Assembly: GCA_029706075.1 (NCBI GenBank)
Contig: JAINUG010000397.1
Location: 371,001 to 435,000 of the forward strand
Direction of reading: 5' to 3'
Source of the DNA: Aldrovandia affinis
Taxonomy: Eukaryota > Chordata > Actinopteri > Notacanthiformes > Halosauridae
DNA length: 64,000 nucleotides
Notes under the pieces: model-generated
What the model saw: only the letters and a program-made list of their open reading frames with translations
What the model was told of the DNA's origin: nothing
Database searches by the model: none
In this document: positions 52,547 to 58,500 of the stretch, in pieces
Numbering within the stretch: the stretch's first letter is position 1
Layout: the number at the start of each line of letters is the position of its first letter
Translations under genes and position numbers: made by a program

Positions 52547-55500
52547 GCGCACACAAACACTCTCACATACCCCACACACACACACACACACACACAAGTG
52601 CACACACACACACACACACACCCACCCACCCACCCACACACACAAGCGCACACACACACTCACCCACCCACCCACACACACACATACACACACACACACA
52701 CAAGCACACACACACTCTTACCCACACACACACTCACCACACACACACACTCACCCACACACACACACACACACTCACCCCCACCCACACACACACACAC
52801 ACACACTGCCCTCCCCTCCTGTGGTCCAGCATCTCTGTCTGTGTGCCCCCCTCCCCTCCACAGAAGGATTTTGTGCGTCAGATCCAGAGCAGTGGGGTGC
52901 TGGTGGTGCTGTCTCAGACCTGGATCGAGGAGCTGTACCACCAGGTTCTGGAGAGGAATCTCCTGGGCGAGGGTGGATACTGGGGCTCCCCTGAGGAGCA
53001 CTCCCTACCCCTCATCACCATGCTCACCGGTAAGGCAGGAAGCCCAGTCTGTCCGCACTGGGAAGTCACTGCGGTTAGAGCACATATCCACATTTGCAAT
53101 TACACATTTATATTCACAGTAACATTCGCATGTAGGCATCTAGTGGACGCTGTTATCCATAGCGGCTTACAAGTAAGTCCTTCCAGGGCAGTGCTCTTCT
53201 AAAGGCAGGGCGGCAGTGTTAGCATAATGGTTAAGGAACTGGGCTTGTAACGCAAAGGTTGCAGGTTCGATCCCAGGTGGGGCACTGCCGTTGTACCCTT
53301 GAGCAAGGTACTTACCCTGGATTGCTTCAGTAAAATATCCAGCTGTATAAATAGATTATATCTAAAGAAATGTCACACTGATGTAACATAAGTCGCTCTG
53401 GATAAAGGCGTCTGCTAAATGCCTGTAATGTAATGTAATGTACTGTAATGTGCTGGTGCAACTAGGCATCAAGGCAGCTTGTTACACATTAAAAGGAAGC
53501 ATATTTGGGGTGCGCTTTGAGGTCAGGTGATTAAATCTGTTATTGCAGGTGTGTGAGCATTTTACACACAATCACCGAAAGACAAAATGAGTGCTAACCA
53601 CGCTAACTATCCATATTACTCCCGAATGAACCAAACATACGAGAGCAGGGTGCCTAGCTAAGTTAGGCTGTTGTTTATAATGGCTCTTGGTGGGTGAACC
53701 TGTATTGTATGTAATGCCCCAGATAGCTAACTACAGTAGAAAGCAATACATTAGCTACATTTCTAAACACACATATTGATCAGACGCCAGACCTCTATGC
53801 TCCCTCTGTAACATTAAACTGCCATGAATCTCCAAACTCCTGTTGGTCTCTGCTGGCCTGTCTTCGTGATACTCAGCGGTAATGTTCAAGGAGCGGGAGT
53901 GTGTGGAGCGGCGATACAGCACACAGCAGGACAGGGTCCCTGCCTTACCACAGAGCCATACCTGTCTCTCTCCCTTTCCCGCGCAGATATCGACGGGCTG
54001 GGCAGCAGTGCCATCGGGGGGCAGCTGATCCACCTGGCCTCGGCCCAGTCCCCGCTCTCCTGCGACAGGATCGGCAACGACACCGTCATGGCAGGTAGCG
54101 CACGACCGCTGACCGTCCCGTCACCGCGCACCCTTCATTACCGCCGAGAGCTAACGCGTTGTGTTACCGCGGTAACTGCTACCCCTGTAGACACGTTGCT
54201 GTTCATGCCCTCATTTATCCTCACGGAGACAAAGAGACAGATGGACAGGTAGACCTATACAGGTAGACGAGTTCCTCTCTGGCCAATGAGATTCCACCAC
54301 TGAGCAGCCAGGGGTTGAGATAATCAGCTGGAGGCACATTAGAGTCGGATGAGTGCCAACACCACACTCCTCACTCATCTTACTTATCTGGGCCCTGATT
54401 GGTCTGCTTCCAGGTATGGTCTTTTATCTGGGTCCTGATTGGTCTGGTTCCAGGCAAAGTGTTTTATCTGGGGGGGCGGTCTAATGCACCACACTTTGGC
54501 CAGTCCGGTGTGGTGTGTGCTGCCTGTCAGGGATGCGGTTAAAAAACCTGCGTCTCTACCAGACTGGCCCTGGTCATCAGCCCCGATTGGAGGCGGCATT
54601 TGGCTGTCTGCCTCCGGGGGAAGGGGGAGGGTAAGCCGGCACGAGTTTATCGAGGGGCAGGCAAAGGCGTCCGTGGTAGAGTTCCGTCTCGGAAGAGGCG
54701 GATCTGTTGGCCTGGAAAGAGTGTCTCGACCTGGATGATGGGCGGCGGACTCATGGGGGAGGGTGAATTGAGATAAATCAACAAAATTGGGACGAAAAAA
54801 AACTGGAAAAATTCTAAATACATTTTTAGAAAAGTGTTTTATCTGGGCCCCCGATTGGTCTGGTTCCAGGCATGGTGTTTGCACGCTACATCCTGACTGG
54901 CTGCTGGAAGAACCTGATTGACACGCTGTCCACCCCATTGACGGGGCGCATGGCAGGCAGCTCCAAGGGCCTGGCCTTCATCCTGGGGGCGGAGGGGGTG
55001 AAGGAGCAGAACCAGCGAGAGCGCGACACCATCTGCCTCAGCCTGGACGGTCTGAGGAAGGCGGCCGGCCTCAGCTGCGCGCTCGGTAATGACGCTGCGC
55101 GCTACCGCCGCGGTAGACGGGGGATGCCTGTGGTTCTCTGTGGCTCAGTTGGTAGAGCACGGCGTTGGCAACGCTTAGGTTGTGGGTTATAATAAATAAA
55201 CGCCATTTAGCAGACGCTTTTATCCAAAGCGACTTACAGTAGTGAATGCATACATTTTTCAGCATATGTGGTCCCTGTGGGGATTGAACCCACAACCTAA
55301 GCGTTTCCAACGCCACGCTCTACCTACTGAGCCACACAGAACCAAGGGTTCAATCCCCACTGGGGTCACATATACTGAAAATGTATGCATTCACTACTGT
55401 AAGTCGCTTTGGATAAAAGCGTCTGCTAAATGGCATATATTATGCCTCAGAATTGCATTATGGAAAGGAGGAAGAGCACAGAGATCTGTGTCATAAATTA

Positions 55501-58500
55501 TGACAACCAGATAGTTATTTTGGGCAGTGAATGGAATGTGATTGCCTATATATGGCCAAAACTTTAAGGACAGAACAGAATGCAGGATGTGGGTCTGTAA
55601 AAGACTATATACAGTATATGCGTATTGATTGGACAAAAATGAAGTGTTGGAATTCAATTGTCGGAAGTCAATTGGCATTGTGTGACTCTGTGTTCTTCGG
55701 TGTGACTGTGTGTGACTCTGTGTTCTTCAGGTGTGACTCTGTGTGACTTTCTGTGACTCAATGTCCCCCAGGTTTGATTTTGTGTGACTGTGTGTAACTC
55801 AGTTCTCTCGGTGTAACTTTGTGTGCTCTGTGACTCTGTATTCTCCAGGTGTGACTCTCTATGTCTCTATGTTCCCCAGGTGTGATCCTGTGTGACTGTG
55901 TGACTCTCTGAGACTCTGTCCCCCAGGTGTGATCCTGTGTGACTGTGTGTGACTCTGTGTCCCCCAGGTGTGACCTTGTGTGACTGTGTGTGACTCTGTG
56001 TCCCCCAGGTGTGATCCTGTGTGACTGTGTGTGACTTGTTTCCCCAGGTGTGACTCTCTATGTCCCCATCTCCAGGTGTGACCCTGTGTGACTGTGTGTG
56101 ACTCTGTCCCCCAGGTGTGATCCTGTGTGGCTGTGTGTGACTCTCTGAGACCCTGTCCTCCAGGTGTGACCCTGTGTGACTCTGTCCCCCAGGTGTTGCA
56201 GCTAATTGTGCCTCGGCGCTGGCTCAGATGGCTGCCGCCTCCTGTGTGCAGGAGGATAAGGAGGAGAAGGAGGTGGAGACCGGCGACGCCATCGCACAAG
56301 GTACGGTCCTCCTGTGCAGCCCAGGCAGTGACATGTGTGAGCGTTTACGTGCAGGTAAACACCAGTGTTCAGTAGCTGCAGTGCAGTGTTACACAGTTTG
56401 GCAGCAGCCTCACTGCTGACGGGGTCGATGCTGTGCTGATGGAGACTCTGTGCTGTGCTGATGGAGACTCTGTGTTTGTGCTGTGCTGATGGAGACTATG
56501 CTGTGTTTGTGCTGATGGAGACCCTGTGCTGTGTTTGTGCTGATGGAGACTGCTGTGCTGTGCTGTGCTGATGGAGACTGTGTTTGTGCTGTGCTGATGG
56601 AGACTCTGTGCTGTGTTTGTGCTGCTCTGATGGAGACTCTGTGTTTGTGCTGTGCTGATGGAGACTGTGCTGTGCTGTGCTGATGGAGACTCTGTGCTGT
56701 GCTGTGCTGATGGAGACTGTGCTGTGCTGTGCTGATGGAGACTGTGTGCTGTGCTGTGCTGATGGAGACCCTGCTGTGTTTGTGCTGATGGAGACTCTGT
56801 GCTGTGTTTGTGCTGTGCTGATGGAGACTCTGTGTTTGTGCTGATGGAGACTCTGTGTTTGTGCTGTGCTGATGGAGACTCTGTGCTGTGCTGTTCTGAT
56901 GGAGACTTTGTGCTGTGCTGATGGAGACTGTGTTTGTGCTGTGCTGATGGAGACTCTGTGCTGTGTTTGTGCTGATGGAGACTGTGCTGTGTTTGTGCTG
57001 ATGGAGACTGTGCTGTGCTGTGCTGATGGAGACTCTGTGCTGTGCTGTGCTGATGGAGACTCTGTGCTGTGTTTGTGCTGATGGAGACTCTGTGCTGTGT
57101 TTGTGCAGTGAAACAGCGGGTAGAGCAGAAGCTGGAGCAGATGGGGCGCCTGCAGGGGGTGCGTTTGCACACGGCCCACGTGCTCTGTATGGATGCTATC
57201 CTCAACGTGGGGCTGGAGATGGGCAGCCACAACCAGGACTGCTGGCCCCACGTCTTCAGGTATGCCAGAGAGCTGTGCCGGGACACTTTCATCCTGTCAA
57301 TGTGCTGTCCCTCCTGCATGCTGGGAGTCAGTGAACAAGGGAGCAAGCGAGTAAGAAAGGCTGGACGTAGCAAAGCAGTCACAGGCTCGAAAAAAAAGTT
57401 ATTGTAGGGTGAGTGAGTATGTTCTTGTTTGGTTATTACAGGTGAGTGAGTATGTTTGTGTTTAGTTATTGCAGGGTGAGTGAGTATGTTCTTGTTTGGT
57501 CACGGTCCACAGGGTGAGTGAGTATGTTCTTGTTTGGTCACGGTCCACAGGGTGAGTGAGTATGTTCTTGTTTGGTCATGTTCTTGGTCCACAGGGTGAG
57601 TGAGTATGTTCAGCGGTGAGTGAGTATGTTTGTGTTTAGTCCCTGGAGCACACCCACTTCAGCACGGTCCACAGGGTGAGTGAGTATGTTTGGCAGGCTC
57701 CCAGCCCCTGGCCATCACGCAAGCTCAGCAGGCGGTGGACCTGGGCCTGGAGTTGAGCACAGACTGCAGCCCGGAGCGCGAGCTGGGCCTCAGCCACCCC
57801 GTCATCCAGCCCCTCTCCATCCCCGAGCTGCTGAAGGAGACCGGGCGGGGCAAGACCTTCCACCTGCGGGGCGGGAGCCTGATGGGCGGGACGGGCGCGG
57901 CCAAAGCCGTCTGCACCCTCTCCACTCAGGCCGACAGGTACGGTGTGCACCCTCTACAAGATCCATCCAGGAACTGTTTCTACCCTCTCAGTGTAACGGA
58001 GTTGGTCCTGCCCGCAGCGGGTTTCGAACCAAGGATCTCGACGCGGCAAGAGAGCGATTTAGCCCGCTGAGCTAAAGACTCAAGTCCCCAACTTTGGGAA
58101 TGAATCGCACTCTTATCGACGTCACATTCTGTAGCGGACGCTCACGTACCAGAGCACACCCTCTACATTCTCCCCCTCGAAACTCCTGCAGCAGCAACCA
58201 CGGTAGCATCCGAGTCATGGCACCAATGTAACGGAGTTGGTCCTGCCTGCAGCGGGTTTCGAACCGAGGATCTCGACGCGACAAGAGAGCGTTTTAGCCC
58301 GCTGAGCTAAAGACTCAAGTCCCCAACTCTGGGAACTAATCACACTCTTATCGACGTCATATTCTGTAGGGGATGCTGACGTACCAGAGCACAGCCCCGC
58401 TACATCAGCAAAGTGTCCACTTTCAGTGGGTTAATAAACAGAAGAATTTGTCCTAAACTCACCATACTGGTCATTTGCACCGTGATTACATTTGTGATGT

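Follow-up and report, generated by a model that had tools for sequence, protein, structure and literature searches.

A Helenus-type TRIM of Aldrovandia affinis and its hybrids with a candidate Ty3/Gypsy helper family

In 2024, Kojima named Helenus, TRIMs that carry tRNA-like sequence in their LTRs and are found in fungi, animals and one plant (PMC10886601, cited here in part). The hosts listed there include coelacanth, sterlet, paddlefish, zebrafish and other Cypriniformes, a catfish and the milkfish. In the cited parts of that report, animal Helenus has 4-bp target site duplications (TSDs), tRNA-His is among the vertebrate primers, and the A and B boxes are kept across lineages; a zebrafish family comprises 5,575 LTRs and 2,618 interiors and forms tandem arrays. 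A Gypsy helper was deduced for animal Helenus from similarity of the primer-binding site (PBS). Among the papers listed by our literature searches for a Helenus helper or chimaera, this is the one that deals with Helenus.

Two other described systems are relevant. The plant TRIM Cassandra also has a pol III-type promoter in its LTR and forms tandem arrays; the promoter is that of 5S rRNA, its LTRs carry terminators, and its partners are called unknown (parts of PMC7215508 and, for the terminators, PMC10886601). The template-switch complex LTR elements of Triticeae are TSD-flanked fusions of near-identical elements joined at R and have been attributed to two RNAs packaged together (Sabot and Schulman 2007, PMC1950507, cited in part).

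Here we describe an element in a stretch of 64,000 nucleotides of Aldrovandia affinis (the window) that, like fish Helenus such as LTR-11_DR of zebrafish, is shorter than 1 kb, non-coding, and equipped with tRNA-like A and B boxes in the LTR, a PBS and a polypurine tract (PPT); the 4-bp TSDs, tRNA-His primer and tandem arrays of its family recur in Helenus, which in zebrafish numbers thousands of LTRs. The first-pass annotation of the window knew of no vertebrate TRIM with a tRNA promoter in its LTR, but Helenus occurs in several fishes (PMC10886601). What the present analysis adds to published Helenus is a candidate helper seen through physical hybrids with a Ty3/Gypsy family, where the published Gypsy helper rests on PBS similarity.

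The window element and its family

The element lies on the minus strand at 57992-58404 of the window and is 413 bp long: a 178-bp LTR, a 59-bp interior and a 176-bp LTR, the direct repeats being 92% identical over 173 nt at a spacing of 235 bp. Its features are as follows.

57988..57991, no strand: left TSD, TCAG (read from the sequence; exact 4-bp TSDs in 19/27 family copies)
57992..58167, minus: 3' LTR, 176 bp, TG...CA (repeat comparison)
58020..58030, minus: B box of the 3' LTR (scan with a box consensus)
58062..58074, minus: A box of the 3' LTR (scan with a box consensus)
58168..58178, minus: PPT GAGGGGGAGAA, adjoining the 3' LTR (read from the sequence)
58168..58226, minus: interior, 59 bp; 81 bp in 21/30 measurable copies (sequence and family loci)
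58208..58225, minus: PBS TGGTGCCATGACTCGGAT, tRNA-His type, 17/18 (sequence against tRNA-His; junction found 661 times at up to 3 mismatches)
58227..58404, minus: 5' LTR, 178 bp, TG...CA (repeat comparison)
58255..58265, minus: B box of the 5' LTR (scan and LTR alignment)
58297..58309, minus: A box of the 5' LTR (scan and LTR alignment)
58405..58408, no strand: right TSD, TCAG (read from the sequence)

The PBS was compared with the 3' end of vertebrate tRNA-His. The A box TAGCTCAGCGGGC and B box GGTTCGAAACC, whose starts are 44 bp apart, fit the Helenus patterns TRGCY...YGG and GGTTC, PBS and PPT lie between the two LTRs, and the whole is non-coding. Repeat comparison and the sequence thus bear out the layout read in the first-pass annotation (two LTRs with TG...CA ends, a 17/18 PBS, a PPT, TCAG duplications, A and B boxes), to which the strand, left out there, is now added as minus. 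The length of 59 bp given there for the interior was right but is that of a shortened form, 22 bp below the 81 bp of most measurable copies. On the plus strand, an open, exon-like stretch at about 57690-57940 (frame 2) ends about 50 bp before the element; if it is an exon, the element would sit antisense in the next intron.

The family was counted with short patterns at up to three mismatches, by which diverged copies are missed. The LTR/PBS junction occurs 661 times in the 1.22-Gb genome (336 forward, 325 reverse) and the 26-nt LTR end 2,489 times (1,310 forward, 1,179 reverse), and reversed-pattern controls for both searches gave 0 matches. LTR ends are more than twice as numerous as PBS junctions, which suggests many solo or broken LTRs, although the ratio is rough, as the patterns differ. 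Among the first 100 of the 661 matches, many junctions reach a PBS match of 18/18 through a G. A similarity search for copies of the window element scored the 40 best candidates. Counts of TSDs, LTRs and interiors come from 70 loci (L001-L070), mostly picked for likeness to the window copy or its PBS junction; leaving out loci without both ends and duplicates gave 27 elements for TSDs, 59 LTRs for conservation, 25 copies for LTR distance and 23 for terminators. The count of interior lengths (n = 30) keeps two duplicates, the window copy and L004 each being counted twice.

All 27 distinct copies with both outer ends have TG/CA termini. A 4-bp TSD is exact in 19/27 and within one mismatch in 25/27, as expected of animal Helenus, and a 5-bp TSD is found in 0/27; cross-paired flanks, used as a control, agreed in 9/702 cases. 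LTR-LTR distances across 25 copies run from 0 to 0.159 (median 0.071), with four copies at 0 and the window copy at 0.078; therefore, some copies are young and the window copy is old. Many copies with target duplications of 4-5 bp had been predicted in the first-pass annotation. At L007, L030 and L033, tandem arrays have LTRs in common. One further copy (L031, TSD CATG) has LTRs whose ends differ (CACCGTCACA and GACCGGTTACA) and is perhaps a mosaic of subfamilies.

The family is thus dispersed, its LTRs begin with TG and end with CA, it has a PBS of the His type, a PPT and TSDs of 4 bp, and in some copies the two LTRs do not differ. These are hallmarks of reverse transcription and integrase action as in LTR elements, not of LINE machinery. 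Short, non-coding tRNA-derived SINEs likewise possess internal A and B boxes and an RNA that may end in flanking DNA, but have a LINE-type tail where this family has LTRs, a PBS, a PPT and 4-bp TSDs. That the window element is nothing more than a tandem duplication, or else two SINEs joined as a dimer, deserves practically no credence: some copies do form arrays that share LTRs, but hundreds of dispersed junctions, TG/CA ends in every delimited copy and 4-bp TSDs refute a duplication without other copies, and the LTR ends, PBS and PPT rule out a SINE dimer. By its structure, the window element belongs with the Helenus-type TRIMs, a kind already published, and it is an old copy of its family.

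The tRNA-like boxes and the RNA end

Scanning the whole window with box consensuses yielded 14 A/B-box pairs, two of which share their B box with another pair, and both LTRs are among them; 40 Markov simulations of the window gave a mean of 0.75 pairs and a maximum of 4. Such pairs are thus enriched in the window, yet are not special to the element. Others lie on both strands (e.g. 7502/7545, 16013/16056, 37516/37472, 53220/53264 and 55334/55290), and one coincides with an ARAGORN tRNA-Ser match at 55268-55342; they are probably heads of tRNA-derived SINEs.

An Rfam search of the element, made because the first-pass annotation proposed folding the LTR as tRNA, found no tRNA at E <= 1 and two chance lncRNA matches far below cut-off; ARAGORN (bacterial setting) likewise reported no tRNA there. 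Because neither program found a tRNA, this part of the LTR is best described as tRNA-like promoter sequence rather than as a tRNA gene. Nor did Rfam match 5S rRNA at E <= 1 within the element, which separates it from Cassandra, whose LTR promoter is of the 5S type (PMC7215508, in part). Structure, copies and TSDs uphold the first-pass description of a TRIM with tRNA-like promoter sequence in its LTR.

Across 59 LTR copies, conservation of the A box is 0.890 against 0.922 for the rest of the LTR, a score equalled or exceeded by 144/167 windows; the B box, at 0.952, is slightly above the rest, and 19/168 windows equal or exceed it. Box conservation was dropped as a proof of promoter function, since the A box does not surpass the remainder of the LTR. 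Since copies decay freely once inserted, conservation among them is a weak test of promoter selection either way. The family may be transcribed by pol III, a reading that A-box conservation does not support.

The transcribed strand lacks TTTT in 22/23 full copies, and AATAAA and ATTAAA are absent from all 23; a run of four T is present in 2/59 LTRs. Absence of such a run over about 420 bp is not improbable in itself. Together, the missing terminators and polyadenylation motifs suggest that Helenus RNA probably ends in flanking DNA. Pol III would begin shortly before the A box in the 5' LTR, read through the 3' LTR and stop at a T-run in the flank. Strong-stop DNA made from the 5' LTR could then pair with the 3' LTR that the read-through RNA contains, the flanking tail being lost; with this transfer, no internal terminator would be needed. 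The first-pass annotation had held that a complete pol III transcript would require an unusually placed terminator and R region; on the present reading, the RNA probably ends in the flank, and the first strand transfer could use the 3' LTR within it.

Alternatively, the boxes could be passengers, with the element transcribed by pol II from the initial portion of its LTR, or by read-through from neighbouring genes, and pol III taking no part. We regard this as a tentative possibility. It accords with the lack of special A-box conservation among copies, with the absence of a tRNA fold in Rfam and with the degeneration of the boxes in the hybrids described below; it fits less well with the tRNA-like spacing of both boxes in both LTRs, with the want of AATAAA or ATTAAA in any full copy, and with the retention of the boxes across lineages in published Helenus families (PMC10886601, in part). 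On the favoured reading, pol III read-through, the scarce internal terminators suggest that a 3' end like that of SINEs goes together with strand transfer of the LTR type; Cassandra differs in that its LTRs have terminators.

The LTR-A family and its hybrids with Helenus

We searched for a helper among exact His-type PBS sites with no Helenus LTR end in front, using one exclusion pattern, by which other families were possibly missed. Thirteen sites resulted, five of which are preceded by one common sequence, LTR-A. It is about 364 bp long, starts with TGTAACATTG, ends with GGTCACA and contains AATAAA in its copy on contig C335. LTR-A is dispersed (the best 40 of 136 candidates were scored as matches). 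Twelve loci were cut out: eight have no adjoining PPT or PBS and look solo, seven of these with exact 4-bp TSDs (TCTG, TAAG, TTAA, CTAA, CTTG, CTGG, CAGA) and one, L088, with one mismatch, and other LTR-A copies have a PPT AGGGGGGTGAA before them or a PBS TTGGTGCCGTTCGACT after them.

Pfam analysis of seven single-copy helper ORF pieces identified RVT_1 in three (8.9e-32, 2.3e-32 and 8.6e-35) and RT_RNaseH or RT_RNaseH_2 in two (RT_RNaseH at 1.2e-28). A 3' piece, cut at the locus edge, gave rve and rve_3 at 29.7 and 24.4 bits, below the Pfam cut-offs of 32.6 and 26.5, and three pieces from the gag position matched no Pfam family. In PDB, the reverse transcriptase piece has Ty3 Gag-Pol as its second-best match, and on such sequence evidence LTR-A is assigned to Ty3/Gypsy.

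The helper PBS TTGGTGCCGTTCGACT agrees with tRNA-His for about the first 10 nt and is then shifted by 2 nt, so that of the autonomous partner foreseen in the first-pass annotation, with a shared tRNA-His primer site, a candidate has been found whose primer site fits in part. The helper PBS pattern has 51 matches, 27 with TGG and 24 with TGA; 18 of the TGA sites lie 169-174 nt from a TGG site and represent a second PBS-like motif, TGATGCCGTTCGAC, in the helper leader (for example at G000:C113:6770348 and 6770521). In front of the 27 TGG sites stands an LTR of LTR-A type in 25 (18 from fetched sequence, 7 by adjacency to scored LTR-A matches; at L112 and L125, the match covers the last 74 and 37 nt) and a Helenus LTR in two. 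Beyond the PBS, the helper leader and the Helenus interior show no significant likeness, 210/2000 shuffles being as good, and homology between them was rejected. An oppositely oriented Helenus copy occupies L070:1125-1694, 36 bp past a helper 3' LTR.

Three of the exact His-type sites were discarded as helpers: L075, L077 and L078 contain no LTR-A, leader or Helenus LTR sequence and no gag-pol within 1.5 kb on each side. A repeat of about 670 bp is present at both L077 and L078 (G000:C1347:1215767 and 1240311), which are separated by 24.5 kb; each copy has an exact His-type PBS-like site, and open stretches downstream at L077 look LINE-like by eye. At L075, a stretch with AATAAA at about 1460-1600 runs into an exact His-type PBS, perhaps another LTR family seen at one locus.

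A junction of LTR-A with the Helenus PBS occurs at six loci in the genome assembly, against 0 for the control. In the composites, LTR-A runs directly into the PBS, interior and LTR of Helenus. The six loci, by contig, are these.

C557: composite of LTR-A, PBS, Helenus interior and Helenus LTR; TSD TGTA
C1947: composite of the same order; TSD TAAG
C1470: composite of the same order; TSD CTGG
C902: composite of the same order, followed directly by the helper leader and, where gag is expected, an ORF
C335, 7639388-7647241: hybrid element, 7,854 bp, Helenus LTRs at both outer ends; CAGA on both sides
C1829: hybrid, truncated

For the 3' end at C902, the guessed site, L100, held neither LTR-A nor a Helenus LTR. 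The 5' part of the C335 element consists of a Helenus LTR, helper PBS and leader, reverse transcriptase and RNase H, a partial integrase match and a PPT, with about 2 kb in mid-element unread; its 3' part consists of LTR-A, Helenus PBS and interior, a Helenus LTR, a partial second Helenus interior and a final Helenus LTR. Likeness among the seven Helenus LTRs of the hybrids is 91-98%. By motif scan, the 5' LTR at C335 lacks an A box, and none of the seven has a canonical B box. Ordinary Helenus copies with 4-bp TSDs belong to the same subfamily (L025, L030, L033, L037). Hybrids are rare, because 25/27 helper PBS sites have an LTR of LTR-A type in front, and they probably stem from one or a few events. 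The compact composites could also be what LTR-LTR recombination leaves behind, namely solo composite LTRs. Even then, the TSDs show integration of units that end in a Helenus LTR, and the helper integrase thus probably accepts Helenus ends.

Routes to the hybrids

The hybrids are most simply read as products of co-packaging followed by a template switch at the PBS. With tRNA-His as primer, Helenus RNA would be copied through LTR and interior back to its own PBS, where reverse transcriptase could switch to the PBS of a co-packaged LTR-A RNA at their shared start, TTGGTGCCG. Copying on through the helper U5-R, followed by the usual first transfer, would place a composite LTR at both ends, so that one switch would be enough. 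The C335 form would have lost its outer LTR-A by an early transfer within the Helenus LTR and by plus-strand priming at the Helenus PPT. The Triticeae complexes, similarly explained and TSD-flanked, join near-identical elements at R (PMC1950507, in part); the present hybrids unite a TRIM with a Gypsy element, and do so at the PBS.

A route through DNA is doubtful, though it has points in its favour. A one-LTR Helenus circle, or ectopic crossing-over between genomic copies, might have joined Helenus to a helper copy at the short PBS match, later reverse transcription spreading the composite LTR; this first step would require no co-packaging. The common stretch at the PBS start amounts to 9-10 nt, Helenus does form tandem arrays (L007, L030, L033), and the Helenus parts of the hybrids are as alike as expected from a single event. 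The join lies, however, exactly at the PBS, a natural point of pausing and transfer, and the 4-bp TSDs of three composites and of the C335 hybrid mark them as having integrated as units.

We consider it unlikely that Helenus is copied mainly by some other Gypsy family whose PBS fits tRNA-His in full, the LTR-A hybrids being rare accidents. Such a family would account for the helper PBS fitting tRNA-His over about 10 nt only; L075 and L077/L078 do have exact His-type sites behind other sequence, and a single exclusion pattern would miss most other LTR ends. Yet none of the 13 sites joins another family to Helenus, and these three loci share no LTR-A, leader or Helenus LTR sequence and show no gag-pol within 1.5 kb on each side.

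The joint explanation that we favour, and judge likely, is therefore a Helenus-type TRIM whose RNA, read through by pol III, is packaged and copied by the Ty3/Gypsy LTR-A family, with a template switch giving rise to the hybrids; packaging and copying by LTR-A are inferred from the arrangement of these sequences. We lean somewhat towards the fuller proposition that LTR-A is the helper of this Helenus and that hybrids in which Helenus LTRs bound a coding element have transposed, the LTR of a pol III-type TRIM having served as that of a coding element. If this is true, the hybrids would be fossils of template switching at a PBS common to both, and would for the first time tie a TRIM with a pol III promoter physically to its helper. 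The TSD-bearing composites name a concrete helper family in one genome, by which co-packaging becomes testable.
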